NCBI RefSeq assembly: GCF_000422885.1
Contig: NZ_AUGX01000008.1
Span: forward strand, 248,001 to 312,000
Length of the DNA stretch: 64,000 bases
Direction of reading: 5' to 3'
From: Ottowia thiooxydans DSM 14619
GTDB taxonomy: Bacteria; Pseudomonadota; Gammaproteobacteria; Burkholderiales; Burkholderiaceae_C
Shown here: piece after piece, positions 3,633 through 53,501 of the stretch
Layout of the letters: each line of letters begins with the position of its first letter
How positions within the stretch are numbered: position 1 is the first letter of the stretch
Position numbers and translations under genes: made by a program
Notes under the pieces: model-generated
Databases searched by the model: none
Told to the model about the DNA's origin: nothing
What the model saw: the letters and a program-made list of their open reading frames with translations, nothing else

Positions 3633-5150
3633 ATGAAAAATGCTTCAAGGGCCTCGCAATCCAGCGAAATCGAGTTGAAACTGGTCCTGCCCGGAGCCGA
3701 TCGGCGCCGAATTGCCGATCAATTGGCGACTACACCACCGCTGGCGGGCGTGGCATTCCAAGTGCTGCGTTTGCGCAACATTTACTTCGACACACCGGAG
3801 CAGAATCTGCGCCAGCAAAAGGCGGCCTTGCGCCTGCGCAGCGTCCGCGAAGGTGCGGGAAGCAGGCCACGATGGATTCAAACGTTCAAAACCGCGGGTA
3901 ACAGTACAGCCGGGCTGAGCCAACGTGGCGAATGGGAAACCTCGCTGCGCCGTGGAGAACTCGATCCCATGGCATTACAAGGTACACCATGGAGTGCGAT
4001 CGACGACCATAACGAGTTGTTTGGTCAGCTGATGCCGTGTTTTGAAACCAGAAGCACGAGAACTGTCTGGCAAGTGAGGGGCGAAGACGCAAGCCACGTG
4101 GAAGTGGCGCTCGACATCGGTTCGATACATGCCAGCGGCAGGCGCTTGCCAATCTGCGAGCTCGAACTTGAATTGATCCAGGGCAGTGCAGATGCACTCT
4201 TTACCCTGGCCGAACAAATTGCCTCACATATAGCCGTTTTGCCGGCGCAAACCAGCAAGGCGCAGCAAGGCTGGCGACTCGCGGCGGGCATCAGCGCTGC
4301 GCCATTGAGGGCGCACGCGCTCGCCCTTGATCCCGATCAGCCAGTCATGCCAGCGGCGCAAGCCGTGCTGGGAGAAATGTTCAGCCAGTTCACCGAGAAT
4401 CTTGTGGGCATTTTGCATGCAGACCACACGGAATTGGTGCATCAAGCGCGCGTTGGCTGGCGCAGATGGCGCAGCGGGCTATGGCTATTCAAGCCACTAT
4501 GCAAGCATTGCCCTGCACCTGATGACGATGACCTGCGTCCATTGCTGAAGGCTCTGGGGGCGGTGCGTGATCTCGACGTCGCGGCACTGGAGAGCCTGCC
4601 GACATGGGCTGAGGCGTTCATCGCTGGCGACCCTCACCGCAGTGCAGACTGGCACCTCATGGAAGCCACGTTGCAGGCCGAACGACAAGCGCGCCGTCGT
4701 TCGCTGCTGAAAGCGCTCGCTGCGCCCTCAACCGGATTGGCTCTTGTGCGCACGAGCCGTTGGTTGCATGGCTTGGAACGTACCCAGGAAGCGTCTCAGG
4801 CTTTGGGAGAATGGGCTAAAGACCGTACGCGCGATCTGCACGCAAGGCTCTCGGGCGAAGTGGATGCCATGCACGCGCTGCCGGCCCCGGAAAACGCCGA
4901 GGTCACGGTACGGCAGCATCGCGTGCGATTGCTAGCAAAGCGAACGCGCTATTGCCTGGAAGCGATGGAGCCCGTGCTCCCCAAAGCACGCACGCGCCGA
5001 TGGGCAGACCAGGCGACAGAGCTGCAGAGCAGCATAGGCGCCGCACGTGACCTGCTCATATTGGCAGAGATGCTGGAGCCTCTGGGAGTAGACCGCGCCA
5101 TCCTGGGGTTTCTGCGCGGCATTTCAGCCGCCCGGATGGCACCCCGGTAG
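3633..5150 (+). CDS. CYTH and CHAD domain protein (inorganic triphosphatase type)
   Basis: 505 residues. The N-terminus carries the E-x-E-x-K signature of the CYTH (triphosphate tunnel) fold at E12-I-E-L-K16, with the domain running to about residue 205; basic and acidic residues typical of the tunnel follow (R-L-R-S-V-R, L-E-L-E-L). Residues about 235-495 form a CHAD domain, a histidine-rich helical bundle that binds polyphosphate (H-x-x-R-V-x-x-R-R-W-R and Q-H-R-V-R-L-L-A-K-R-T-R-Y pieces are seen). E. coli YgiF has the same two-domain architecture and hydrolyses inorganic triphosphate, so that activity is likely. Convergent with the OmpA-like gene. The ATG follows a large hairpin closely, so transcription must start in or after it, or read through. 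Confidence 0.88.
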   Translation: MKNASRASQSSEIELKLVLPGADRRRIADQLATTPPLAGVAFQVLRLRNIYFDTPEQNLRQQKAALRLRSVREGAGSRPRWIQTFKTAGNSTAGLSQRGEWETSLRRGELDPMALQGTPWSAIDDHNELFGQLMPCFETRSTRTVWQVRGEDASHVEVALDIGSIHASGRRLPICELELELIQGSADALFTLAEQIASHIAVLPAQTSKAQQGWRLAAGISAAPLRAHALALDPDQPVMPAAQAVLGEMFSQFTENLVGILHADHTELVHQARVGWRRWRSGLWLFKPLCKHCPAPDDDDLRPLLKALGAVRDLDVAALESLPTWAEAFIAGDPHRSADWHLMEATLQAERQARRRSLLKALAAPSTGLALVRTSRWLHGLERTQEASQALGEWAKDRTRDLHARLSGEVDAMHALPAPENAEVTVRQHRVRLLAKRTRYCLEAMEPVLPKARTRRWADQATELQSSIGAARDLLILAEMLEPLGVDRAILGFLRGISAARMAPR

Positions 5151-5191
5151 ATCGGCTACCAGGTATTGAGCACCTGCTCAGGTCGCCAAGG

Positions 5192-5725
5192 TTATTGCAA
5201 GCGCACTTCGACTCGCCGCGCCTCGGCATTTGTGCCACCGGCCAGGGTGACCTCAGGTTTACGCAAATCAAGCTTGTCTTCACCGATGCCGAGGGAAATC
5301 AGGGTATCGCGCACGCCGATGGCGCGCTGCTTGGCCAATTCCTCATTCAAGGCGGGATCGCCGGAAGTGTCGTGGAAACCGCTGATGAGGGCGATTTGGC
5401 CGGCCGCGACGCCTTTCACGATGTCACCCAACGCATCTTTGGCGCCCGGTGCCAATTCTGCTTTGCCGCTGGCGAAGTAAAACTTGACAACGCCTGTTTC
5501 GACCACGATGCTGGCCGCGTCGACTGCTATGACCGTTGCGCCCGCAGCCGCGCCGCCTAAGGCCACACCCGCACCTGGGGTTGCGACAATCGCCGCACTC
5601 GTTGCTGGGGATTTTTTGCTGGACTTGTAGATACCGACGCCAAGCGTCAGACCAACAGCCAATAGCACCATACTGAACACCACGCCCAGCGCCAAACCTT
5701 GGTTATCGTCGTCTTGAGAATTCAT
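5192..5725 (-). CDS. OmpA-family protein with a single N-terminal membrane anchor
   Basis: 177 residues with an AGGAG ribosome site. After a short acidic start (N-S-Q-D-D-D-N) there is one hydrophobic helix at about residues 10-31, then an alanine/glycine-rich linker, then an OmpA_C-like peptidoglycan-binding domain from about residue 75 to the end. The conserved N-x-x-L-x-x-x-R-A-x-x-V block is seen as N-E-E-L-A-K-Q-R-A-I-G-V, with R-R-V-E-V at the end. No lipobox, so it is probably held in the inner membrane with the domain in the periplasm, unlike Pal. Stands alone and is convergent with the CYTH-CHAD gene. Confidence 0.82.
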   Translation of the reverse strand: MNSQDDDNQGLALGVVFSMVLLAVGLTLGVGIYKSSKKSPATSAAIVATPGAGVALGGAAAGATVIAVDAASIVVETGVVKFYFASGKAELAPGAKDALGDIVKGVAAGQIALISGFHDTSGDPALNEELAKQRAIGVRDTLISLGIGEDKLDLRKPEVTLAGGTNAEARRVEVRLQ

Positions 5726-5845
5726 TAACTAAGCTCCTGCTTTTAATAAAGCCTTGCGTGATTTCCTGCGCACCGTGGAGAAAAAGACTCCACGCACTAC
5801 ACAGGCAACCATGCAAGGCATCCTGGAAAATTATAAAGTTTGGCC

Positions 5846-6493
5846 ATGAAGCCCCTGGAAGACCATCCAACCCCGGCGTCCGATTCATTTCGGCATCTGT
5901 TCAGACCGGGCCGAGAGCCCGCTCAAATGCTGGAAAAAGCTCGCCGGCAATGGCTGCAACAGGGCCATGCACAGGATTTGTGGGTCTTCGGCTATGCCTC
6001 TTTAATTTGGCGACCAGATTTCGATCATACCGAACGTCATGCCACACGTGTGCATGGCTGGCATCGGGCACTGGCCATGTGGAGCCGAGTTAACCGCGGC
6101 ACCCCTGAAATTCCTGGTCTGGTTTTCGCGCTTTTACCCGGCGGCAGCTGCCGCGGCGTGATTTACCGCATTCCTCACCGCAATGCGAACGAGGTGCTGG
6201 ATTTGCTATGGGCCCGCGAGATGCCCACTGCGGTCTACGACCCGCGCTGGCTCCCCTGCTCGACGCCGCACGGCCCGGTATCTGCGCTGGCGTTCACCTT
6301 GTCGAGGCGCAGCCCCGCTTTCACCGGCGAGCTGACGCCAGAGCAATACAGCCATATTTTCAGCGGAGCGAGCGGGCGCTACGGCACCACTTTGGACTAC
6401 GCACGCCAAACCCATGAAGCCCTGCGCGCCCACGGGATTGACGATGCATCGCTCACCAGGCTCCTGGGACATGCGAAGCCGGATTCGCCCTGA
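5846..6493 (+). CDS. ChaC-like gamma-glutamylcyclotransferase
   Basis: 215 residues from the ATG at 5846; the frame is also open from a TTG two codons earlier. Y-G/F-G-Y-A-S-L-I-W near residue 50 is the ChaC substrate-binding loop that follows the first strand, and W-A-R-E-M near 127 contains the glutamate expected to act as general acid/base. The family splits glutathione into 5-oxoproline and Cys-Gly. The length matches bacterial ChaC proteins with a slightly long N-terminus. It lies upstream of pdxH in the same direction with a 60-base gap, so co-transcription is possible. Confidence 0.85.
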   Translation: MKPLEDHPTPASDSFRHLFRPGREPAQMLEKARRQWLQQGHAQDLWVFGYASLIWRPDFDHTERHATRVHGWHRALAMWSRVNRGTPEIPGLVFALLPGGSCRGVIYRIPHRNANEVLDLLWAREMPTAVYDPRWLPCSTPHGPVSALAFTLSRRSPAFTGELTPEQYSHIFSGASGRYGTTLDYARQTHEALRAHGIDDASLTRLLGHAKPDSP

Positions 6494-6553
6494 ACACCCT
6501 ACAGGAGTGTCGCGCACAAAGGGCATCACAGCGCCTGCCTTTACACTGCCTGC

Positions 6554-7189
6554 ATGAGCGATATCGCACACCTGCGCAAGAGTTACGAGCGTGCCGAACT
6601 TTCGGACGACGCCTCGCATGCCGACCCACTTCACCAGTTTGGGAAATGGTTCGACGAAGCCCGGAAAAGTGAGGTGCCAGAGCCGAACGCCATGACGCTG
6701 GCGACCGTCAGCGGTGATCTAAGACCCAGCACGCGCATCGTGCTGATCAAGGATTTCGATGAACGTGGCATCGTCTGGTATACCAATTACGACAGCCGAA
6801 AAGGGCGCGAATTGGGCGGCAACCCTTATGCTGCACTGCAGTTTCACTGGGTAGAACTGGAGCGCGTGGTGCGCATCGAAGGTCTCGTGGAAAAAGTAAG
6901 CGATGCCGAGAGCGATGCCTACTATGCCAGCCGACCTCTAGACAGCCGCATTGGCGCCTGGGCCAGCCCACAAAGCCAAATCATTGAAAGCCGTTCGGTA
7001 CTGGTGACAAGTGCTGCCAAGTACGGTGCCAAATTTCTGCTCAATCCCCCGCGCCCGCCGCACTGGGGCGGGTTTCGGCTGGTACCGGAGCGCTGGGAGT
7101 TCTGGCAAGGCCGCAAAAGCCGGCTGCACGACAGGCTGCAGTATCGAATGGGTGAGAGTGGCTGGTTGCGCGAGCGCTTGGCGCCTTAG
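6554..7189 (+). CDS. pdxH: Pyridoxamine/pyridoxine 5'-phosphate oxidase
   Basis: 211 residues, the normal length. It makes pyridoxal 5'-phosphate from PNP or PMP with FMN and oxygen. Family blocks are complete: M-T-L-A-T-V near 46, R-I-V-L-I-K-D-F-D near 62, Y-T-N-Y-D-S-R-K-G near 75, the F-H-W[11 protein letters not shown] block near 97, S-R-P[10 protein letters not shown] near 125, and the C-terminal [17 protein letters not shown]-x-x-R-L-H-D-R signature. Convergent with the transporter gene at 7213. Confidence 0.97.
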
Positions 7190-7212
7190 TGGGCCGCAGG
7201 AGTTGAGCAGGC

Positions 7213-8169
7213 TTATCGCGGCAGCAGCCACATCACCACAGACACCGTAACCACCGCCATGGCGGTGGAAATCGCTACCGAGGCCGTGACCAGCTCCTCA
7301 GCCTTGTGATAGCGCTGCGAGAACAGAAACACGTTGGCGCCCACCGGCAAGGCCGCGGCGACCACCATCACCGCCAGAGGCAGGCCGGTAAGGCCTAGGG
7401 CCCAGCCAGCCAGAGCCATGAGCGCCGGATGCACGACGGTCTTAAGAGTAGAAATGACCAGCGCACCGCGCAGATGCGGACCGATGGCGGTTTGAGCCAG
7501 CGTCACGCCCACCAGGACGAGTGCCACTGGACCAAACGCGTCTCCCAGCAGCTTGAGTGGACGCTCCACTATGGGATGCAGCCCGATCCCTGTCAGTGAA
7601 TACAAAAAGCCCGCGATGATGGGAAGCGGAACCGGATGGAAGATCGCGTTCTTGACCGCCTGCACCACGGTGGCGGCAATGTGGCGTTGGCGCCCCTCAC
7701 CCGCGGCTTCCTGCTCTCGCGCCACCAGCAGCTCAATGACCACCGTGGCCAGGGTCAGCAGCACCAGCGCATGCATTGAAATCAGGGTAAAAAGATTCAA
7801 CAGGCCCGCCGGGCCGTACGCCAGTTGGACAAGCGGCACTCCAATCATCAGCGTATTGCTAAAAATGGCTGCCATTGCCACCACTGCTGACCGGCTATTC
7901 AGGCCTTGAATGAACAACAGGACGAAAAACAGGACGCCCGCCACGACGTAATACAACGCGACAGAGCGCAGATCCAGCCGTTCCAATTGCGCCGTGGCCA
8001 TGCTTCGAAATAGCAATGCCTGCACCAGCACCAGAAACACCAGGTTGGAGAGATCGCGCACGGCTTGGCCGCGAATCAGCTTCATTCGACCCGCCAGAAA
8101 ACCAATACCAATCAGCAGCACCACCGGAAGCAGGGAGGACAGAACGGGGTGGTCGAGCGATAAGGCCAT
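7213..8169 (-). CDS. AEC-family transporter (auxin efflux carrier type)
   Basis: 318 residues with about ten hydrophobic segments in two groups of five, separated by a short polar loop (R-E-Q-E-A-A-G-E-G-R-Q-R-H) around residues 150-162. The N-terminal L-P-V-V-L-L-I-G-I-G-F-L-A-G-R start is typical of bacterial AEC proteins, which export or import small carboxylates such as malate. Divergent from ribBA across a 157-base gap, with no regulator next to it. Substrate unknown. Confidence 0.85.
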   Translation of the reverse strand: MALSLDHPVLSSLLPVVLLIGIGFLAGRMKLIRGQAVRDLSNLVFLVLVQALLFRSMATAQLERLDLRSVALYYVVAGVLFFVLLFIQGLNSRSAVVAMAAIFSNTLMIGVPLVQLAYGPAGLLNLFTLISMHALVLLTLATVVIELLVAREQEAAGEGRQRHIAATVVQAVKNAIFHPVPLPIIAGFLYSLTGIGLHPIVERPLKLLGDAFGPVALVLVGVTLAQTAIGPHLRGALVISTLKTVVHPALMALAGWALGLTGLPLAVMVVAAALPVGANVFLFSQRYHKAEELVTASVAISTAMAVVTVSVVMWLLPR

Positions 8170-13477: not shown

Positions 13478-14515
13478 ATGAACGCCGCAGCCGAACGCCA
13501 AGAGTTCGCCCCTCCCCAACAAGGTGGAATGGGGCGCGCCATGGCGCTGGCACTTTTTGCCCATTTGCTGCTGATCCTCGCGCTGACCTGGGGCATCAGC
13601 TGGCGCAGCGAAGCGCCAGAAGACGCAGTAGAGGCCGAGCTCTGGGCGCCGGCCGTGCAACGCGCCGCGCCAAAGGCTGCACCCAAGCCGCCGCCAGAGC
13701 CAGCGGTAGAGCGGGTAGAACCTCCTGTGCCGCCCAAGCCAATCCCCAAGCCCGAACCCGTCGTGAAGCCGCCCCCACCGCCCAAACCTGCGGTGGACGA
13801 TGCACGAGAGGCAGAGATCGCCTTGGCGCAAAAGAAGAAGAAAGAAGAAGAAGCTCGTCGCAAAGCGGCTGAAGCGCGCGAGGAGAAACGCCGCGAAGAG
13901 AAACGCGAAGAAGAGCTTGAGCGCAAAGAATTGGCGCAAAAGAAAGCCGCCGAAGACAAACGTCGCAAAGATCTTGCAGCCAAAGAAGTGGCTGAAAAGA
14001 AAGCCGCCGATAAGAAGCTCGCCGAAAAAGCCGCTAAGGAAAAAGAAACCGCCGAACGCAAGGCAGCAGACGCCAAAGCCAAGGCAGAAGCTAGCCGCGA
14101 GGCCAAAGAATCCGACAGCCGCCGCAAAGCCGAGCTTGCACGCATGGCCAAACTGGCAGGTAGTGCAGATAGCGACGGTGGAACCTCCGCCAATGGGAAA
14201 GGTGCCACAAAAGGCAGTGCTGGCGGTACTGACGAACGCGACGCCGGCCCATCAGGTAACTACGCCGGCAGAATCCGCTCCGCCGTCCGGCCCAATATCG
14301 TGTTCTCCGACGATGTGCCCGGTAACCCAGTCGCTGAAGTGGAAGTACGCACCGGCCCCACCGGCACCATCATCAGCCGCCGCATCATCAAATCCAGTGG
14401 AGTGAAGAGCTGGGACGATGCTGTGCTGCGAGCACTTGATCGGACGGAAAAGCTGCCTTCGGATAACGGGCGTTTTTGGAATCCGATGGTGATGCAGTTC
14501 AAGTTGAGGGATTAG
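13478..14515 (+). CDS. tolA: Tol-Pal system protein TolA
   Basis: 345 residues. One N-terminal membrane helix at about 22-43 (A-L-A-L-F-A-H-L-L-L-I-L-A), then a proline/lysine linker (about 60-105), a long K/E/A/R-rich coiled coil (about 107-225), a Gly/Ser/Thr spacer and the globular C-terminal domain that binds TolB and colicins (about 255-345). The end is complete. Its last ~22 codons occur a second time at 16880-16946. In related genomes tolB and pal normally follow; here they do not, and a duplicated accessory region begins directly after the stop. The composition-driven antisense frame over this gene is not real. Confidence 0.96.
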   Translation: MNAAAERQEFAPPQQGGMGRAMALALFAHLLLILALTWGISWRSEAPEDAVEAELWAPAVQRAAPKAAPKPPPEPAVERVEPPVPPKPIPKPEPVVKPPPPPKPAVDDAREAEIALAQKKKKEEEARRKAAEAREEKRREEKREEELERKELAQKKAAEDKRRKDLAAKEVAEKKAADKKLAEKAAKEKETAERKAADAKAKAEASREAKESDSRRKAELARMAKLAGSADSDGGTSANGKGATKGSAGGTDERDAGPSGNYAGRIRSAVRPNIVFSDDVPGNPVAEVEVRTGPTGTIISRRIIKSSGVKSWDDAVLRALDRTEKLPSDNGRFWNPMVMQFKLRD

Positions 14516-14517
14516 GG
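14451..14517 (+). repeat. tolA 3'-end segment, copy 1 of direct repeat
   Basis: 67 bases ending just after the tolA stop codon. Copy 2 lies at 16880-16946. The two differ at six positions in five codons (GAT/GAC, AAC/AAT, CAG/CAA, AAG/AAA, TTG/CTC), all synonymous. The following ~100 bases and the lipoprotein genes beyond are also related between the copies. Confidence 0.95.
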
Positions 14518-14621
14518 AGCTGTTGCATAACCCCTCGATTGCCAGTTTTTAGTCGCCGCTATCCCGATCGGCAGCGAGACGGCACAAATGCCAGCTCGGC
14601 GTGGGATTCAGTATGCACTCA

Positions 14622-15158
14622 TTATGGCTCGCAGGTGTCGCCATCCGGCATGTGTATTACTGAGCCAGAAACGGCCTTGTTGTATTCGAGATAGCGTTGG
14701 GCGCGCTGTCGCGTGTTGGCAGTGATGGCTTCGATTTTTGTCGTCCATACCCCAGGTCGACTCTCAACAAAGACACTGCGAATGCAATGGATAGCCGCTG
14801 CACTTAGAGCGCCAATCCGATCAAGTGCCGCTTCGTCATTCAAGGGCGTGACCAAAGATAACTGCAAGGCTCTGCCACCCTGCAACAATGCTCTTTTCTG
14901 CTCATCGCTGAGTGGTTGGGCAGCAATATAGGCATCGATGTCATCGCGCACGCCATTTCTATTGGAGTCAGTACCGGCAATGCTGGTACCTTGGTCGAGA
15001 CGATGTATTTGGCCAGAGCTCTCCAAATCGGCTATTTTGCTTGCTGCTTCACGCACAGCGCCATCGGGATCACTACAGCCCGTCGAGCTATACAAAGTCA
15101 GCAAAGTAAGAGCGCCGGCGAAGACTCTGCGAAAAGAGGAAGAAAAAGGAGATGTCAT
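14622..15158 (-). CDS. Putative lipoprotein with an EF-hand-like motif, paralogue 1
   Basis: 178 residues. The N-terminus (M-T-S-P-F-S-S-S-F-R-R then a hydrophobic stretch ending L-Y-S-S-T-G-C) looks like a lipoprotein signal with the acylated cysteine near residue 28; position -3 is a serine, so the lipobox is weak. Residues around 62-75 hold D-S-N-R-N-G-V-R-D-D-I-D, a bacterial calcium-binding EF-hand-like loop. The C-terminal half carries two cysteines (near 139 and 175) that could pair. It shares most of its length with the protein at 17057-17602. It lies 44 bases downstream of the hydrolase gene on the same strand, so they are probably one transcript. I recognise no named family. Confidence 0.75.
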   Translation of the reverse strand: MTSPFSSSFRRVFAGALTLLTLYSSTGCSDPDGAVREAASKIADLESSGQIHRLDQGTSIAGTDSNRNGVRDDIDAYIAAQPLSDEQKRALLQGGRALQLSLVTPLNDEAALDRIGALSAAAIHCIRSVFVESRPGVWTTKIEAITANTRQRAQRYLEYNKAVSGSVIHMPDGDTCEP

Positions 15159-15202
15159 GCAAATGTGTCCGGAAAACTCAGCTGTGATCGAACATGGGTG
15201 GG

Positions 15203-16435
15203 TTAAAGCTCCGAAGCCTGGTCCAGCGCTGCGCCCAACAGTGCCTTAATGCTGCCTCGCGCAGCGCGAGCCGAATCAAGATAGGTTTTGACCAGGGTGT
15301 GACCACTAGCATCTTCGAGTAGATTTGCGGGAATGTTGATGTTTACTGGCGGCACTGTGTTGGGGCCACCATGCAAGCGTAGACCATTGATCACCAAATC
15401 AATATCTGCCAGTAAATGCTCGCCTCGCAGGGTAGGTGAAGCAGGAGCCACATGCACAGCCGCCACCTTCGTGAAGGGATGGGCGTTCTTAGCGTGGTCA
15501 TATGCCGGGTTGAGGAACAGATTGCCTTGTGAATGTCCTAACAGCACCAAGTGATAGCCGTCCTGCGCAAACGCATTGAGAACACGAGTTTGTTCGATGA
15601 TGTCAGCGGCAGTGGGTGGATTGCTAAGTAGATGTGCCCAGCCGCTCGCGACCTTATTGATCAAGTTTTCAACCGTCGCGTCCACCAACTCGATTAGGCC
15701 GCCCCCGTAGTGGCCCAGCTTGCTGAGCAGGTTTTGCGTCAGTGCACCGTCTTGGCGGTGGGTGCCTGACAGCATTTCCCAGAAATACTCCCAGCGTTGA
15801 TTAAGTAACCCATTTAACTCACGGTCACGCTGGATAAAAACCTCGGCCAAGTCCTGTAACCCGGTGCTGCCACTGACGCTACCGGTCTGGTTGTAGAGCA
15901 CCTTATAGCTCAAAACATGGTTCTTGTAGATGCGACCATGCACCGTTTTAATCTCATCAAGTCCATCAACGGCTTGCCAGCGTGTGTTCCAAACCCCATT
16001 GAAGAAACCTACGAAAACTGGCTTGATCTCTTTCGTGCATGTGACGGCGAAAACTCGCCCACGCTTGCTCCAAGGCGTTCCATCCTGTCTGCGACCCCCG
16101 TATTGGCAATCGATAAAAAATCCTTCGGTCACCAACGAACTTCGCCCGCCTGAGTCAACTTGTGGCCCCCAAGGATCTGCATAGGAAGGACGATTAAACC
16201 TTTGGCCTTTCTTCTGCTCTTCAGCGGTGGGATCGTTTGGAAAGCCTCCTTCTTGAAGATACAGCTGATATGCCTCCTGTGGAGAATGAGCAAATAAGTC
16301 AAATCTGAACCCGCTGCATCCGCCAACTTGCCCATCGCCCTCAGAGTTAAAACTGCATGCGTAGGGAGTCGCATGGGCAGCGTGAGCGAGCATCGCTACT
16401 AGCCACACAACAGAGGCTGCACAAACAAGCCTCAT
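15203..16435 (-). CDS. Secreted alpha/beta-hydrolase (lipase-like) of unknown substrate
   Basis: 410 residues from the ATG at 16435, chosen because it gives a clean Sec signal peptide (M-R-L-V-C-A-A-S-V-V-W-L-V-A-M-L-A-H-A-A-H-A). A longer frame to 16498 would run through the apparent -10 box. A nucleophile elbow, L-V-L-L-G-H-S-Q-G-N-L-F, sits near residue 302 and fits the G-x-S-x-G motif of lipases and esterases; a histidine in D-A-S-G-H-T-L-V-K near residue 383 is a candidate member of the triad. There are several cysteines before the hydrolase core (C-S-F, C-S-G-F, D-C-Q-Y, C-T-K). Followed directly by the lipoprotein gene. Cargo and substrate unknown; a lipase/partner or effector/immunity pair is possible. 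Confidence 0.72.
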   Translation of the reverse strand: MRLVCAASVVWLVAMLAHAAHATPYACSFNSEGDGQVGGCSGFRFDLFAHSPQEAYQLYLQEGGFPNDPTAEEQKKGQRFNRPSYADPWGPQVDSGGRSSLVTEGFFIDCQYGGRRQDGTPWSKRGRVFAVTCTKEIKPVFVGFFNGVWNTRWQAVDGLDEIKTVHGRIYKNHVLSYKVLYNQTGSVSGSTGLQDLAEVFIQRDRELNGLLNQRWEYFWEMLSGTHRQDGALTQNLLSKLGHYGGGLIELVDATVENLINKVASGWAHLLSNPPTAADIIEQTRVLNAFAQDGYHLVLLGHSQGNLFLNPAYDHAKNAHPFTKVAAVHVAPASPTLRGEHLLADIDLVINGLRLHGGPNTVPPVNINIPANLLEDASGHTLVKTYLDSARAARGSIKALLGAALDQASEL

Positions 16436-16484
16436 TAGGCCGGATAGATTAGATATGCTCACCTTGAGAACCGAATAAATTAAT

Positions 16485-16490
16485 ATTATA
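16485..16490 (-). promoter_or_regulatory. Putative -10 box of the hydrolase/lipoprotein transcript
   Basis: On the minus strand the sequence reads TATAAT exactly, about 50 bases before the chosen ATG. No good -35 box lies 17 bases upstream (GAAATT), which would suit an activated or regulated promoter. The same TATAAT with its surroundings is conserved upstream of the second lipoprotein gene (17694-17699). Confidence 0.5.
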
Positions 16491-16491
16491 G

Positions 16492-16509
16492 TTCTCAATT
16501 AATTGAGAA
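16492..16509. promoter_or_regulatory. 18-bp perfect palindrome next to the -10 box
   Basis: TTCTCAATTAATTGAGAA is its own reverse complement and occupies the -10/-35 spacer of the putative promoter, a typical operator position. In the duplicated promoter at about 17701-17718 the right arm has decayed (TTCTCAAAAAATTGATG), so any control may differ between the two copies. Confidence 0.5.
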
Positions 16510-16719
16510 TTTCGTATATATCCGACAGGCAATCAAGGGTGGCTGCCCTCCGCACTTATCCGCGCGGCTTATGCCTGAGGAGCTACGGCCTCCCGTAAGG
16601 AGCTGCGTGCAAGGCTGTCGCAGTCGAGGCTCTGGGTGGGCCTTCGGAGCCGTCGACGCAAAGAGAACCTCGGCTAAATGAGTCAGCATGCACTCATGTC
16701 GCCCGGCACATCGGTGGCG

Positions 16720-16819
16720 CCCCAACCCTCACCCCAACCCTCACCCCAACCCTCACCCCAACCCTCACCCCAACCCTCACCCCAACCCTCACCCCAACCC
16801 TCACCCCAACCCTCTCCCG
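16720..16819. repeat. 12-bp minisatellite, eight copies
   Basis: The unit AACCCTCACCCC begins at 16724 and recurs every 12 bases up to 16808 without mismatch; the last copy runs into a REP-like hairpin. The unit equals the left flank of the REP-like element seen elsewhere in the window (18061, 52700, 52921), so the array grew from that element's edge. Confidence 0.95.
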
Positions 16820-16833
16820 CAGGCGGGAGAGGG
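16810..16833. repeat. REP-like palindrome (CCCTCTCCCGC/GCGGGAGAGGG)
   Basis: 11-bp perfect arms with a two-base loop. The following bases (GGGGGAAAACCAGACGGCCGCGGAGTAGGCCATACGGG) match flanks of the copies at 18170 and 52740, marking one dispersed intergenic family. Confidence 0.85.
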
Positions 16834-16879
16834 GGAAAACCAGACGGCCGCGGAGTAGGCCATACGGGTGTAGCCGCGG

Positions 16880-16946
16880 AGCTGCCTTCGGACAATGGGC
16901 GTTTTTGGAATCCGATGGTGATGCAATTCAAACTCAGGGATTAGGC
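16880..16946 (+). repeat. tolA 3'-end segment, copy 2 (no gene attached)
   Basis: It encodes the same last 20 TolA residues and the stop as copy 1, with only synonymous changes. The bases before it belong to the REP-like flank (compare TAGCCGCGGAGCTG at 16871-16884 with 18198-18211); the two sequences part company after the shared AGCTG, which marks the junction. Confidence 0.93.
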
Positions 16947-17056
16947 AAGGCCGGCGGTCTCGCCCTCAGGTTGCCAGCTGTTCGGCGCCGCCGGTCGTGG
17001 GATTGCCGGGAAAACGGCGCAGATCCGGACTGTGCCTACAGCGCGCTGGGTCTTTA

Positions 17057-17602
17057 TCATGGCTCACAGGTATCGCCGTCCGGCATGCGTGTAAACGAGC
17101 CGGAAACTGCCTTGTTGTAGTCGAGATATCGCTGTGCGCGCTGCCGCGTATTGGCGGTCATGGCTTCGATTTTCGTTAACCAAACGTCGCTGTCCCGGGA
17201 ATCAAAAACACGGCCGATGCAGCGGACTGACGCTGCACTCAGAGCGCCAATTCGATCAAGTGCAACCTTGTCATTTAATGGCGTGATCAGAGATAGCTGC
17301 AGGGCTCTGCCAGCTTGCAGCAACGCCTTTTTCTGCACGTCACTAAACGGCTGTGCGGCTATAACGTCCTCGATGTCATCACGCACGCCGTTCCCATTGA
17401 CATCTACGCCGGCAATGCTGGTGCCTCGGTCGAGCCGGGGTATTTGACCGATGTTTTCCAGGTTTTCTATCTGAGCGGCTGCTTCGCGCCCGGCTCCTTC
17501 TGCATCGCTGCAGCCAATTGAGAAAAACAGCATCGCCAATGTGAGGGCACTGAAAACTAGCCGGCGAAGCGAAAGCAAGGCATGAGCTACTTGAACGGAC
17601 AT
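17057..17602 (-). CDS. Putative lipoprotein with an EF-hand motif, paralogue 2
   Basis: 181 residues from the ATG at 17602. It matches paralogue 1 from the lipoprotein signal to the shared end M-P-D-G-D-T-C-E-P. The signal ends F-F-S-I-G-C, again a weak lipobox. The loop D-V-N-G-N-G-V-R-D-D-I-E is a better EF-hand than in paralogue 1, with glutamate at position 12. The first residues (M-S-V-Q-V-A-H-A) and the DNA upstream match the signal peptide and promoter of the hydrolase gene at 16435, not the start of lipoprotein gene 1. The second cassette therefore looks like promoter + hydrolase start joined to the lipoprotein, with the hydrolase body deleted. Confidence 0.75.
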   Translation of the reverse strand: MSVQVAHALLSLRRLVFSALTLAMLFFSIGCSDAEGAGREAAAQIENLENIGQIPRLDRGTSIAGVDVNGNGVRDDIEDVIAAQPFSDVQKKALLQAGRALQLSLITPLNDKVALDRIGALSAASVRCIGRVFDSRDSDVWLTKIEAMTANTRQRAQRYLDYNKAVSGSFTRMPDGDTCEP

Positions 17603-17988
17603 CGCTACTAACCCCAGAATGCGGACTGAACGAGCACTATTTGTTAGGCTGGATGACTTAGTTGCGCGCACTTTTATATTCGTATAAATTAATATTATAG
17701 TTCTCAAAAAATTGATGTTTCGTGTGTGTCTTGCACTTTTCCGCACAGGACACGCCTGTGGAACCACGGCCCCTCGTAAGGGAGGTGCGCGCAAGACTTC
17801 AGGAGTTGAGACCCAAGGAAGGCACTAGGAACCGATAGCCGCGGCGGCACTTCGGTATATGAGTCAGCAGACACTCATGGCGCCCTGTACATCGGCGGCG
17901 CGGCTACCCTCACCTGCTTGCGGGTGTGGGGGAAATGGAGTGATGCAAAAGCTGCGCGTCCGTCAAATGCCGCTTGCCCCCATCCCAA

Positions 17989-18094: not shown

Positions 18095-18218
18095 AGAAAT
18101 ACATGGCTGGTCGCGGAACGCGACCACACTTGAATTGCCTCGGAGTTCCATAAATGGCGGCGCCACCAAAAGGCCGCGGAGCAGGCCATACGGGTGTAGC
18201 CGCGGAGCTGGCTTTGCC

Positions 18219-18347
18219 AGGCCGCTGGGTGCGTCCCCCTCCGGGGGAAGGCGCGCAGCGACTCAGGGGGAGCCCATCTCTCCAGGCCGCTGGCTGCGTC
18301 CCCCTCAGGGGGAAGGCGCGGCAGCGACTCAGGGGGAGCTCACTCGT
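18219..18347. repeat. Tandem pair of a 65-bp unit abutting the dnaE stop
   Basis: Units begin AGGCCGCTGGGTGCGTCCCC at 18219 and AGGCCGCTGGCTGCGTCCCC at 18284. Each contains a CCCCCT-AGGGGG mini-palindrome and ends GACTCAGGGGGAG. Related sequence lies at 52795-52850 and 53015-53065, where it abuts the stop of the thioesterase gene. The placement after stop codons on the opposite strand suggests a shared role or insertion preference. Confidence 0.8.
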
Positions 18348-21300
18348 ACACTATCATCGCCCGCCCCTCATCAGCCTGCGCCATCCAACCGGCGAGCGCG
18401 GCATCACTTGGGAAAAAGCGGGCTTCTTCTCCCAACTGAATCTGGGCCATGACGCCTTTGATGCCACGGTGCTCGTCTGTACGTCGCTCCAGCACCAAAC
18501 GCACCAGCATGCCTTTCAGCAACTCGCCATGCTCAGTGACTTCAGACTTGGGCGGATGCTCTGCGAGTAGTCGTTTCACATCCGGAACTTGGCCATTCAC
18601 GGCGACGCGCAGGAACTTCCCAAACCGGCAACGCGCCGATGGCAGATCCAATATTTGCGTGATCGTGACTTGAACTCCACCGGAGAATCGATCAGGTTGC
18701 ACCTTGCCCATGACAATGATCAGTTCATCGTCTTTCAAGAGGTTGCGGTGCTGGTTGATCAAGGCTTCATCCGCACGCGCCTCGATCACACCCGATTTGT
18801 CGTCAAGCTTGAACAGCGCGAGCTTGCCGCGCTGGCCGTTGATGACCCGAAAATCTCCCACAATCCCGGCTAGCAACTGAGGGTCTCGGCTATCGACCAG
18901 ATCGTCAATACGCCGGCGCACGAATTGCCGCACCTCGCGTTCGACTTCATCGAAAAGATGGCCCGAAAGATAGAACCCAATGGCGGTCTTCTCCAGGGAA
19001 AGTCGCTCCTTCACGCCCCATGGCATCACCTGCGCAAGCTCCGGCTCTTGCGTGACCGATCCATGGCTGTCATCAAGCAGATCAAACAACCCGCTCTGGT
19101 TGGCGTTCGCCGCGCAGGCAGCCCCATAGTCGAAGGCCAGATCCAAGGATGTGGCCAGCGCAGCCCGGTTCATCTGCAATGAATCAAAGCCTCCGGCGCG
19201 AATGAGCGCCTCTACGGTGCGCTTATTGACGCGCGAACGATCGACGCGATTGCAGAAGTCAAACAGGCTCTTGAATGGCCCCGACTCGCTTCCTGAATCT
19301 CCAGCTCCTCGCCCTTCGCGCGCAGCGACAATGGCTTCAATAGCCTGCTCGCCCGTACCCTTGATGGCCCCCAGGCCATAGCGAATCAAGGTATTGCTGA
19401 TGGGCTCGAAGCGGTAGGTTCCCCGATTGACGTCTGGTGGTTCGAAAGTCATGCCGCTCTTCAGCGCGTCTTCGTACAACACCTTGAGCTTGTCAGTGTT
19501 GTCCATCTCAACCGTCATGTTGGCGCAGTAGAACTCGGCGGTGTAGTGCGCCTTGAGCCAGGCCGTGTGATACGCCAGCAGAGAATAAGCGGCAGCGTGC
19601 GACTTGTTAAAGCCGTAGCCTGCGAACTTCTCCATCAAATCGAAGATTTCGTCGGCCTTGCTTTGGGAAATGTCGTTTTTGGCCGCACCTTCCCGGAATA
19701 TCTGCCGGTGTTCCGCCATTTCCTCGGCTTTTTTCTTACCCATGGCACGGCGCAACAAGTCGGCGCCGCCCAGGCTATAGCCGCCCAGGATCTGCGCAGT
19801 CTGCATGACCTGCTCCTGGTAGACCATGATGCCGTAGGTCTCGCTCAGCATCTCGGCCACCAGGGGGTGCGGGTACTCGACCGGTTCGCGCCCGTGCTTA
19901 CGCGCAACGAAGCTTGGGATCAGATCCATAGGGCCGGGACGATACAGCGCGTTCAGCGCGATCAGGTCCTCAAGCCGGGTGGGCCGGGCGTCACGCAACA
20001 TGCCTTGCATTCCGCGGCTTTCAAACTGGAACACAGCTTCAGTGCGGCCATCCTGGAACAGTTTGTAGGTCTTGGCATCCACGAGCGGGATGTTTTCGAA
20101 AGCGAAATCTTTCTGGCTCGGGTGGCGGCGAACAATCAAATCCTTGGCGATTTCCAGGATCGTCAGGGTGGCGAGGCCCAAGAAGTCGAACTTGACCAGG
20201 CCGACGGCTTCGACGTCATCCTTGTCGTACTGGCTCACAGCTGAATCACTGCCCGGCTGTTGGTAGAGAGGGCAAAAGTCAGTGAGCTTGCCCGGGGCGA
20301 TCAACACGCCACCGGCGTGCATACCGACGTTTCGCGTCATACCTTCCAGCTTCTGCGCCAGCGCGAGCAAGGTCTTGACCTCATCCTCTTTTTCCAAGCG
20401 CTCCGCCAGCACGGGCTCGACTTTGATGGCGCCATCAATGGTGATGTGCTGGCCGGGCTTGTTAGGAATGAGCTTGCTGATGCCATCGCAGAACATGTAG
20501 CTCATGTCCAGCACGCGGCCCACGTCACGAATGGCCGCGCGTGCCGCCATGGTGCCGAAGGTGGCGATCTGGCTCACGGCGTTCTTGCCGTATTTATCCT
20601 TCACATAATCGATCACGCGGTCACGGTTGGCCTGGCAGAAATCGATATCGAAGTCAGGCATGCTGACGCGTTCGGGGTTCAGGAACCGCTCAAACAGCAG
20701 GTTGTACTGGAGCGGATCGAGGTCGGTGATCTTCAGTGCGTACGCCACCAGGGAACCCGCACCCGATCCACGCCCCGGTCCTACCGGACAACCGTTGGCC
20801 TTGGCCCACTTGATGAAGTCGCCCACGATCAAAAAATAGCCCGGGAAACCCATCTTCAAGATGGTGCCGATCTCGAACTCCAGCCGTGCCTGGTAAAGCG
20901 GCATCTGGGCCGCGCGCGCGGTGGCATCAGGGTAGAGGTGCGCCATGCGCTCCTGCAGGCCTTCTTCCGACGCAAGGCGGAAGTAGTCGCCAATGGGCAT
21001 GCCGTTTGGCGTGGGGAAATCCGGTAACTGCGGCTTGCCGAGCGTGAGCGTCAGGTTGCATCGGCGCGCGATTTCCCCCGTATTGGCCAGCGCCGAAGGC
21101 ACATCGGCAAACAGCGCTTGCATTTCTGCTTGCGACTTGAAGTATTGATCCTCTGTAAACCGGCGTACCCGACGGGGGTTGCCCAGAATCTCGCCCTCGG
21201 CGATACACACGCGCGCCTCATGTGACTCATAGTCGTCTGGCCGCTGAAACTGAATGGGGTGCGTTGCGACCACCGGCAGTTGAAGTCGCGCCGCCAATTG

Positions 21301-21849
21301 AACCGCTGCAGCCACATGGTTCTCGTCATCCGGCCTGCCGGCTCTCTGCAGTTCCAGGTAAAAGCGATGCGGGAAGATCCCCGCCAGACGAAGCGCCAGC
21401 TCGCTAGCCCGCGCAAGATCACCTCGCACCAAAGCCTGCCCAACCGGGCCGGCCTGCGCACCAGATAGCACCAGCAAACCTTCAGAGAGTTCACTGAGCC
21501 AAGCCCAGGTAGTGACGGCCTGAGACTTAACTGATCCTTGCGTCCACGCCCGAGCCAGGAGTTCCGACAAATTCAGGTAACCCTGGTGGCTTTGAACCAG
21601 GAGCAACACCCGCGATAGCGTGCCTTTTTCTGCATCGGCTCCTTCAAGCAGGATTTCAGCGCCGAGAAGCGGTTTGACCCCCGCCGAGCGAGACGCTTTA
21701 TAGAACTTTATAGCCCCGAACAGATTATTCAGATCGGTGATGGCCAAAGCGGGTTGGCCATCCGCGCAAGCCGCTCCCACGATGTCATCGACACGATTGG
21801 TACCGTCGATGACAGAAAACTCAGTATGCAAACGAAGGTGAACGAACAT
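18340..21849 (-). CDS. dnaE: DNA polymerase III alpha subunit
   Basis: 1169 residues from the ATG at 21849 (M-F-V-H-L-R-L-H-T-E-F-S-V-I-D-G); the frame extends 27 residues further but without family support. Domains in order: PHP (about 1-280), polymerase with the catalytic acidic block M-P-D-F-D-I-D-F near residue 400 and G-R-G-S-G-A-G-S just before, tandem HhH (near 830), OB fold (near 990-1070) and a C-terminal tau-binding tail. Replicative polymerase of the holoenzyme; essential. Complete, with normal family length. The 3' end is bordered by tandem repeats. Confidence 0.97.
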   Translation of the reverse strand: MFVHLRLHTEFSVIDGTNRVDDIVGAACADGQPALAITDLNNLFGAIKFYKASRSAGVKPLLGAEILLEGADAEKGTLSRVLLLVQSHQGYLNLSELLARAWTQGSVKSQAVTTWAWLSELSEGLLVLSGAQAGPVGQALVRGDLARASELALRLAGIFPHRFYLELQRAGRPDDENHVAAAVQLAARLQLPVVATHPIQFQRPDDYESHEARVCIAEGEILGNPRRVRRFTEDQYFKSQAEMQALFADVPSALANTGEIARRCNLTLTLGKPQLPDFPTPNGMPIGDYFRLASEEGLQERMAHLYPDATARAAQMPLYQARLEFEIGTILKMGFPGYFLIVGDFIKWAKANGCPVGPGRGSGAGSLVAYALKITDLDPLQYNLLFERFLNPERVSMPDFDIDFCQANRDRVIDYVKDKYGKNAVSQIATFGTMAARAAIRDVGRVLDMSYMFCDGISKLIPNKPGQHITIDGAIKVEPVLAERLEKEDEVKTLLALAQKLEGMTRNVGMHAGGVLIAPGKLTDFCPLYQQPGSDSAVSQYDKDDVEAVGLVKFDFLGLATLTILEIAKDLIVRRHPSQKDFAFENIPLVDAKTYKLFQDGRTEAVFQFESRGMQGMLRDARPTRLEDLIALNALYRPGPMDLIPSFVARKHGREPVEYPHPLVAEMLSETYGIMVYQEQVMQTAQILGGYSLGGADLLRRAMGKKKAEEMAEHRQIFREGAAKNDISQSKADEIFDLMEKFAGYGFNKSHAAAYSLLAYHTAWLKAHYTAEFYCANMTVEMDNTDKLKVLYEDALKSGMTFEPPDVNRGTYRFEPISNTLIRYGLGAIKGTGEQAIEAIVAAREGRGAGDSGSESGPFKSLFDFCNRVDRSRVNKRTVEALIRAGGFDSLQMNRAALATSLDLAFDYGAACAANANQSGLFDLLDDSHGSVTQEPELAQVMPWGVKERLSLEKTAIGFYLSGHLFDEVEREVRQFVRRRIDDLVDSRDPQLLAGIVGDFRVINGQRGKLALFKLDDKSGVIEARADEALINQHRNLLKDDELIIVMGKVQPDRFSGGVQVTITQILDLPSARCRFGKFLRVAVNGQVPDVKRLLAEHPPKSEVTEHGELLKGMLVRLVLERRTDEHRGIKGVMAQIQLGEEARFFPSDAALAGWMAQADEGRAMIVYE

Positions 21850-22140
21850 TTCAAATATGTGAGCGACAAACGATGGATTGGGAGGGGCGCCTACCTGTAA
21901 AGCATTCATGCGCCTGTTGCAAAAAGACACTCTTATTCGGGTTTTTACGGGGCTAGTTGTGCATTACTTCTCACGGACTCCAATCGACCTCTCACCAGTG
22001 GAGCTTAGAAAAATATACTCAGTCCATCGGATGCAAAAAACCAAAAAAAAGCGTCTCAAAGAAAACAATTAGTGGCCAACGACTTAGCTGTTGCGCCGTT
22101 TGTAAGTCAGGCAAAGATGCCTAAACGTAGCACATAAATT

Positions 22141-52527: not shown

Positions 52528-52711
52528 GTTTTGTCTCCTTTAAAAGCCAATTTTCGAATCATCCAGGGAATTGATTAACGTGGGAAGTCAACTCAGGGAG
52601 TTTCATTCCAGGGCTACCTTATCCACAAACGGCCGCGTTGCAGGCCATGCACGGAACGCCATGAAATGCCATGTGTTGCCTCGATAGATGCGCTGCCGCC
52701 CCTCACCCCAA

Positions 52712-52735
52712 CCCTCTCCCACAAGTGGGAGAGGG
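52712..52735. repeat. REP-like palindrome (CCCTCTCCCAC/GTGGGAGAGGG)
   Basis: 11-bp perfect arms, AA loop. A compensated variant of the 16810 and 18071 stems: C-A and T-G swapped together at the inner pair region, so pairing is kept. Confidence 0.85.
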
Positions 52736-52930
52736 AGTCAAAAGGCCGCAGAGCAGGCCATGCGCGAGCGCCATGGACGGACCTGTGCCGGCCATTGGCG
52801 TTGTCCCCCTCCCGCAGGGAAAGAGGGGGAAGGCGCCGAAGGCGACTCAGGGGATGCCTCATTTTCTTCAGCCCACAAGCGCCAATGCCATGCGTCGCCT
52901 CCATAGATGCGCCGCCGCCCCTCACCCCAA

Positions 52931-52954
52931 CCCTCTCCCACAAGTGGGAGAGGG
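52931..52954. repeat. REP-like palindrome, second tandem copy
   Basis: Identical stem and loop to 52712-52735, 219 bases away. Confidence 0.85.
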
Positions 52955-53072
52955 AGTCAAAAGGCCGCGGAGCAGGCCATGCGTGGAACGCCATGGACGG
53001 ACCTGCGCCGGCCATTGGCGTTGTCCCCCTGGGGGGAAGGCACCGAAGGGGACTCAGGGGGGGGCCCATTTT

Positions 53073-53501
53073 CTAGTAGGTTTTGGCAACAGGCATCAAG
53101 GTCTGCTGCATCAAGGCGCAGGCAGACTGCTGTCCATCCTCCGCGACGTGAAGCACCTCAGCGCTGGTGATGATGAGCCGCTTGCCGGGCTTGGTCACCC
53201 TGCCTATCGCTCGCAGCGCTCCACCCTTGAAGCTGGCAAGGAAATTGATTTTGTACTCAACCGTGACAACTTCCATGCCGTCAGGGGCGACCGTCAGGCC
53301 CGCATAGCCGCCAGCAATGTCGGCCACCGCGCCCATGGCTCCGCCATGAAAGCCATCCTGCTGCTGCGTGACCTTGTCGGAATAGGGCAGCCATATCTCG
53401 ACCAAGCCGGGCTCCACACGCCGTAACTCGGCGCCCAGATGCAGCATCATGCCTTGGCGCGCGAAGCTCGCGGCTATACGCTGAAATTCTGAAGTATTCA
53501 T
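53073..53501 (-). CDS. PaaI-family hotdog thioesterase
   Basis: 142 residues. F-H-G-G-A-M-G-A-V-A-D-I-A-G-G-Y-A near residue 50 is the H-G-G block with the catalytic aspartate of the PaaI group. Starts inside the end of the MerR regulator gene (ATGA overlap), so the two are translationally coupled. It probably hydrolyses an acyl-CoA of the pathway controlled by the regulator. The stop is bordered directly by the repeat array. Confidence 0.9.
   Translation of the reverse strand: MNTSEFQRIAASFARQGMMLHLGAELRRVEPGLVEIWLPYSDKVTQQQDGFHGGAMGAVADIAGGYAGLTVAPDGMEVVTVEYKINFLASFKGGALRAIGRVTKPGKRLIITSAEVLHVAEDGQQSACALMQQTLMPVAKTY

Follow-up and report, generated by a model that had tools for sequence, protein, structure and literature searches.

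Organization of the tolA-dnaE interval

The window, that is, the whole stretch of 64,000 nucleotides that was analysed, contains tolA and dnaE, and a self-alignment of the window displays two tandem units behind tolA. The first has the order tail, lipoprotein, hydrolase and spacer, and the second has the order tail, lipoprotein and spacer. The features are as follows, with the basis of each assignment in brackets.

13478..14515, forward strand: tolA, complete, carrying tail 1 (TIGR02794 tolA_full, 9.2e-38; Pfam TonB_2)
14451..14515, forward strand: tail 1, the tolA 3' end common with tail 2 (sequence comparison)
14622..15158, reverse strand: lp1, unit 1 lipoprotein gene, 178 aa (ORF; family alignment; lipobox by eye)
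15203..16498, reverse strand: hyd, putative secreted alpha/beta hydrolase with GHSQG motif (ORF; HSQG invariant in family alignment)
16475..16498, reverse strand: 24-nt block upstream of hyd and, with identical sequence, of lp2 (unit alignment)
16720..16815, no strand: array of the 12-nt unit CCCCAACCCTCA (repeat search)
16842..16884, forward strand: copy of a genome-wide interspersed repeat, ending at the joint (repeat search; other copies)
16880..16884, forward strand: joint AGCTG, common to the repeat end and tolA (alignment)
16880..16944, forward strand: tail 2, displaced tolA 3' end, 20 codons and stop (sequence comparison)
17057..17602, reverse strand: lp2, unit 2 lipoprotein gene, with 68% identity to lp1 (ORF; family alignment)
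17579..17707, reverse strand: leftover homologous to the hyd 5' end, in frame with lp2 (nucleotide alignment)
18165..18214 (also given as 18167-18220), forward strand: interspersed repeat, right end of unit 2 (repeat search)
18340..21930, reverse strand: dnaE (ORF; directly after tolA in the congener G004)

Unit 1 (14451-16879) comprises tail 1, lp1, hyd, the 24-nt block, which looks promoter-like by eye, spacer and repeats. Tail 2, lp2, the same block and similar repeats make up unit 2 (16880 to about 18214), from which hyd is absent. The initial annotation had recognized a repeat of tail and lipoprotein gene, and this pair was confirmed; the repeat is longer than had been stated, continuing past the lipoprotein start as far as about 18214 and so forming a second unit. 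The likely start of hyd is the ATG at 16435, with an apparently Sec-type signal peptide recognized by eye. Because the region before lp2 aligns with the hyd 5' end (89/127 aligned nucleotides identical; 43-residue readings gapless by eye), unit 2 probably once had a hyd gene and has since lost it. The G+C content is 54.1% in unit 1, 57.5% in unit 2 and 58.1% in the window; the lower value of unit 1 gives a weak hint that this unit is newer.

Several minor features were also found in the window. A perfect 18-nt palindrome, TTCTCAATTAATTGAGAA, lies upstream of hyd at 16492-16509 (by eye), and a half-site alone is kept in unit 2 at about 17700-17707; the palindrome is a possible operator. An 88-codon ORF at 16678-16944 holds PQPS repeats and ends in frame with tail 2. 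At 52665-53074, about 204 nt are repeated in tandem with 86% identity.

Silent differences between the two tolA tails

Tails 1 and 2 both encode LPSDNGRFWNPMVMQFKLRD, and the stop codon is TAG in each. The initial counts proved right on re-reading: the same 20 residues and stop are encoded, six bases differ in five of the last 20 codons, and no residue is changed. The differing codons (copy 1/copy 2) are codon 4, D (GAT/GAC); codon 5, N (AAC/AAT); codon 15, Q (CAG/CAA); codon 17, K (AAG/AAA); and codon 18, L (TTG/CTC).

In simulations of 20,000 trials for each of three transition biases, the chance that all random changes are silent is P 0 to 1.5e-4 for six changes, 0.001-0.003 for four and 0.006-0.015 for three. 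Since the changes of a working copy are expected to be silent anyway, only those on the copy-2 branch were used to assess drift. As polarised by us, copy 2 departs from G004 and other congeners at the Q, K and L codons, and copy 1 departs from them at D and perhaps N. The copy-2 branch thus holds changes in three codons and at either three bases or four, according to which of CTG and TTG was the ancestral codon, and therefore the fair P for the silent-only pattern is about 0.001-0.015. The earlier argument that a useless fragment drifting after plain duplication should not keep only silent changes was slightly too strong in view of this value, and its rejection of drift is retained.

Divergence of tail, spacer and lipoprotein pair

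Between the units, the tail and stop are identical at 57/63 positions (90%), whereas the spacer beside the tail is at background, with 57/106 aligned nucleotides identical (54% compared with 53% in shuffles). The spacers are still homologous, because their alignment score of 47 exceeds that of all 200 shuffles (best 33).

The third-position divergence of the tail pair is 0.25. For the last 20 tolA codons, the third-position difference ranges from 0.05 to 0.45 in 11 congener pairs, ten of which are at or below 0.20, and is 0.20 between the window's genome (G000) and G004. The tail pair is more diverged at these positions than 10 of the 11 congener pairs, and its value therefore lies within the interspecies range for a working tolA, on the high side. 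Additionally, the 80 codons before the tail change more slowly than the remainder of tolA in all pairs but L028-L029 (10 of 11).

For lp1 and lp2, dN is about 0.22 and dS 1.2-1.4, similar to the dS of 0.54-1.37 between G000 and G004 for tolA, tolR, tolQ and part of dnaE (two methods), so the tail and the lipoprotein can have diverged equally long. The NG86 dS of the tail, 0.65, is lower than the 1.4 of the lipoprotein pair; a lower tail value would also be expected from gene conversion, and the tolA C-terminal end is slow between species as well. Because tail 2 shows no nonsynonymous change in about 48 sites, the time that it has spent without function may be put roughly below 10-20% of the divergence time.

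Joint of the units and distribution in relatives

The stretches 16839-16888 and 18165-18214 are 92% identical, and the interspersed repeat, about 50 nt long, has many matches across the genome. The five other copies that were read go on as GGAGCTGGCTTTGCC past the joint position; therefore, the match at the joint is 5 nt (AGCTG, 16880-16884), and the units join without long homology.

G004 has the nearest tolA among the congeners, 89% identical by protein to that of the window. Its locus consists of tolA, a similar interspersed repeat in the tolA-dnaE spacer, and dnaE, with the module absent, and thus represents an empty site. In the other congeners with a tolA match, dnaE lies within the tolA flank that was taken in 10 of 26. 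Among the 29 genomes of the genus, searched with the tail pattern at up to 3 mismatches, only G000 has two matches; 20 others have one and 8 have none. A strict tail pattern applied family-wide matched 4/399 genomes, all in the window's genus, and is too strict to speak for other genera.

Over 60 nt of the tail, copy 1 and copy 2 differ at 6 positions, copy 1 and G004 at 5, and copy 2 and G004 at 7; the 19 other congeners with an extracted tail show at least 15 differences per 60 nt from either copy. The clustering of the tails with those of congeners had been proposed as a check on a foreign origin of copy 2. Neither copy groups with another species, and a comparison over 60 nt is uninformative on this point. 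A donor with the same tail and module was not found among the 28 other genomes of the genus, and lp matches there occur in G028 alone, on another contig than its tolA match. By third base, the G004-like codons are 4-5 in copy 2 and 15, 17 and 18 in copy 1; a mosaic formed by crossover within the tail fits this arrangement and was set aside (chance 0.2). As a separate observation, the congener G006 has a second TolA C-terminal-like match close to tolA (C242:148-435).

A parallel locus in Sulfuricurvum

In the window, an intact tolA is followed by an insert and then by a partial copy of the tolA 3' end in the same direction. The same holds for gX, a carbon-nitrogen hydrolase gene by eye, at locus L053 of a MAG of Sulfuricurvum sp., where the order is complete gX, lp, hyd, fragment of gX and a dnaJ-like gene. 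Over 30 codons of this fragment, 10 of 16 changed codons are silent, compared with a neutral mean of 2.8 silent codons, and 10 were reached in 0/5000 simulations. The fragment also has a stop and five residue changes. Judged from these codons, this is the same silent-biased signature in an older, decaying form.

The L053 fragment differs at 19/90 nt from its own gX and at 19-26/90 from all 29 relatives compared, which are the best matches of the 59 matching out of 60, kinship not being indicated there; gX itself differs at 5/90 nt from the relative L128. In 21 of the 29 relatives gX stands directly before the dnaJ-like gene (empty site); of the remainder, one has the lp-hyd pair, six have other DNA and in one the contig ends. 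The other DNA between gX and the dnaJ-like gene was seen in L130, L132, L134, L135, L138 and L141, marking a variable site; five of these inserts are about 3.4-4.5 kb and one about 0.7 kb. In G1198, apparently the same contig as L045, gX, lp, hyd and the dnaJ-like gene occur without the fragment.

The end of the L053 fragment runs on into the spacer found in empty-site relatives. The last 23 codons of gX compared (261-283) differ from L128, the nearest relative, at 17/69 positions, compared with 37/780 before them (p 1.9e-7). Between L128 and L129, both with an empty site, no such jump exists at the gX end (8/69 and 101/780); the jump in L053 is weak against L129 (p 0.009) and absent against L136 (p 0.42). 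Because the middle is foreign, the fragment bears the native end and gX bears a swapped end, we infer that L053 has the anatomy expected when a re-closed donor piece integrates by a single crossover. L053 is an analogy from another bacterial group and not the same event as that of the window.

Origin of the two units

The anatomy of the interval, the joint, the silent-only divergence, the decayed flank, the empty site of G004 and the same pattern in L053 can be read directly from the sequences. It is probable that each tail diverged within a functional tolA, the two genes belonging to separate lineages, and that a homologous event together with an illegitimate one recently brought the tails into one genome. 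The parent lineages would be about as far apart as G000 and G004. The donor piece would have carried a tolA 3' end and the lipoprotein-hydrolase module, and the recipient would already have had a tail and lipoprotein gene behind tolA. On one side, homologous recombination within tolA would have left tolA intact; on the other, the piece would have been joined at the 5-nt chance match AGCTG, and the earlier tail with its lipoprotein gene would have been stranded downstream. The route may have been either a donor circle with a single crossover or end-by-end joining (homology-facilitated illegitimate recombination, HFIR), of which the single crossover seems to fit L053 better. We infer this route, the direction of transfer, its recency and the loss of hyd from unit 2.

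The initial annotation had suggested that copy 2 came from a working tolA of another lineage together with its lipoprotein gene. The interspecies-like divergence of tail and lipoprotein agrees with a working tolA of another lineage, and the foreign tail may be either copy 2, as suggested, or copy 1. In L053 the swapped end sits on the gene and the stranded piece continues the native-type spacer.

The main rival, which the initial annotation had named as its second option, is a possible, though improbable, gene conversion: an old tandem duplication in one lineage via the 5-nt match, after which tail 2 was overwritten from tail 1 of its own or a related strain. An ordinary tandem duplication would give the same joint and the same order of units, the high identity ends abruptly after the stop codon, as would a tract limited to the common stretch, and the tail is less diverged than lp1/lp2. 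However, the 3-4 base changes of copy 2 should then include residue changes (all silent, P 0.001-0.015), and conversion need not be invoked once the slow interspecies change of the tolA C-terminal end is taken as the yardstick for the tail.

It is very improbable that tail 2 is still under selection, either translated as the end of the 88-codon ORF or serving in recombination or as RNA. The silent-only pattern does indicate coding constraint at some time, and the ORF with its PQPS repeats ends in frame in tail 2, but its upstream part consists of the 12-nt simple repeat and the interspersed repeat, and the search of the genus's 28 other genomes revealed no second tail, 8 of them lacking any match. 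Plain tandem duplication with neutral drift of a useless fragment would account for the duplication of the entire unit, including the spacer and promoter-like block; it is rejected as scarcely credible, because the spacer decayed to background while the tail kept 90% identity with silent changes only.

There is hardly any likelihood of an integrase-driven element using the tolA 3' end as its attachment site: unit 1 lies between direct repeats of the gene end and the target gene is whole again, yet lp1, hyd and lp2, the three evident genes of the interval, match no recombinase family, and the homology extends far past the tail into lp2. An assembly artefact, suggested by the joint at a many-copy repeat in a genome of 78 contigs, is equally remote, since the units diverge by about 10-46% where they align and the genome matches contain one full tolA, one extra tail and nothing more, so that the contact of repeat and truncated tail should exist in the reads.

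Comparison with known systems

In Neisseria, minimal mobile elements swap gene content between conserved neighbour genes and have no mobility genes; the window may be likened to them in both respects, exchange by flanking homology being putative in its species.

The recombination mechanism of the preferred origin by two unlike joints is already known, while the passenger lp-hyd is uncharacterised. As described for E. coli (PMC3240628), linear DNA can be re-closed and integrated by single crossover, and HFIR produces one homologous and one illegitimate joint. In the laboratory clones described there, a piece of the anchor gene was duplicated (diagnostic PCR product in 56/60), with duplicated pieces of 109-950 bp in the sequenced clones (n=14). 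The window resembles these products in its homologous and illegitimate joint and its duplicated anchor piece; unlike the clones, it formed in nature, from parents that had diverged, and its piece is 65 nt long; its route is deduced from sequence.

In the immunity arrays of another report (PMC5361080), a new pair is inserted at the anchor, the old large gene is lost and the small gene is kept downstream, and one array holds a displaced 3' gene end. By analogy, the window may be compared with these arrays on these points and in that its small gene adjoins the large one and outnumbers it; it is unlike them in that the anchor is an unrelated envelope gene and the effector-immunity role of hyd and lp is putative. 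For the orphan cdi modules of Acinetobacter, displaced 3' gene ends with small genes are reported, with an illegitimate joint proposed (PMC6336857); there, unlike in the window, it is the toxin gene itself that varies. Merodiploids of Streptococcus pneumoniae arise by natural transformation, incoming DNA making tandem duplications (PMC3784515), but through recombination between long repeats, whereas the joint of the window is a 5-nt match.

These findings imply that silent-only differences in a stranded gene end tell integrated diverged DNA apart from a plain duplication and set limits on how old the event is. Since the signature recurs in L053 with a homologous module at an unrelated gene, it is searchable.

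The lp-hyd module

Neither lp nor hyd had a sequence match at cut-off in Pfam, PADLOC or PDB. In NCBIfam, hyd had no match and lp1 had only two weak hits, both falling well short of the curated cut-offs (17.1 bits, cut-off 120; 13.7, cut-off 50). The hyd-lp pair, matching nothing at cut-off in these sequence searches, is a concrete target for functional work. The predicted structure of lp1 (mean pLDDT 84) consists of helices only and has no PDB match at E 0.001 or better; that predicted for hyd (mean pLDDT 50) was set aside.

The lp gene stands beside hyd in 27/27 distinct loci with hyd, although 9 of these 27 came from the lp search and so hold lp by selection. One weak hyd match outside the 27 (L070) had no lp in its flank. 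Closer examination covered 11/22 non-own hyd places of one search and 0/9 of another. Extra lp genes exist in 5 of the 27 loci (window, L044, L046, L096 and L106), and hyd remnants lie beside lp in L044 and L095. In L097 (8890-9999), a hyd homologue broken by one TAG stands beside an lp homologue.

Direct repeats flank the module in 6/24 loci compared with 1/183 control placements, and in 5/23 loci without the window (p 6e-5), the control placements overlapping and thus not being independent. The 24 loci include two with lp alone (L048 and L049); left out were L099 (the module sequence of L098 in a second genome), L104 (the same locus as L052) and six with flanks below 500 nt. According to names given by eye, the repeats are gene ends in the window and L053, terminator-like in L098, an interspersed element in L100, transposase-like ends in L101 and hicAB-like remnants in L108. 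With kinds so different, the repeats yield no single insertion rule for the module. The tblastx matches between module flanks were mostly noise-like.

A doubtful reading is that lp-hyd forms a so far unrecognised module for competition (or for envelope lipids) that is exchanged widely. Lacking mobility genes of its own, it would pass from species to species by borrowing the 3' end of any gene that it adjoins, regenerating the neighbour and stranding its old end, and earlier lipoproteins would be kept as a protective array. At one further locus, L054, an 893-nt direct repeat of 99.6% identity lies at 4855-7259, and a repeat family of about 300 nt is located just upstream of the lp gene.
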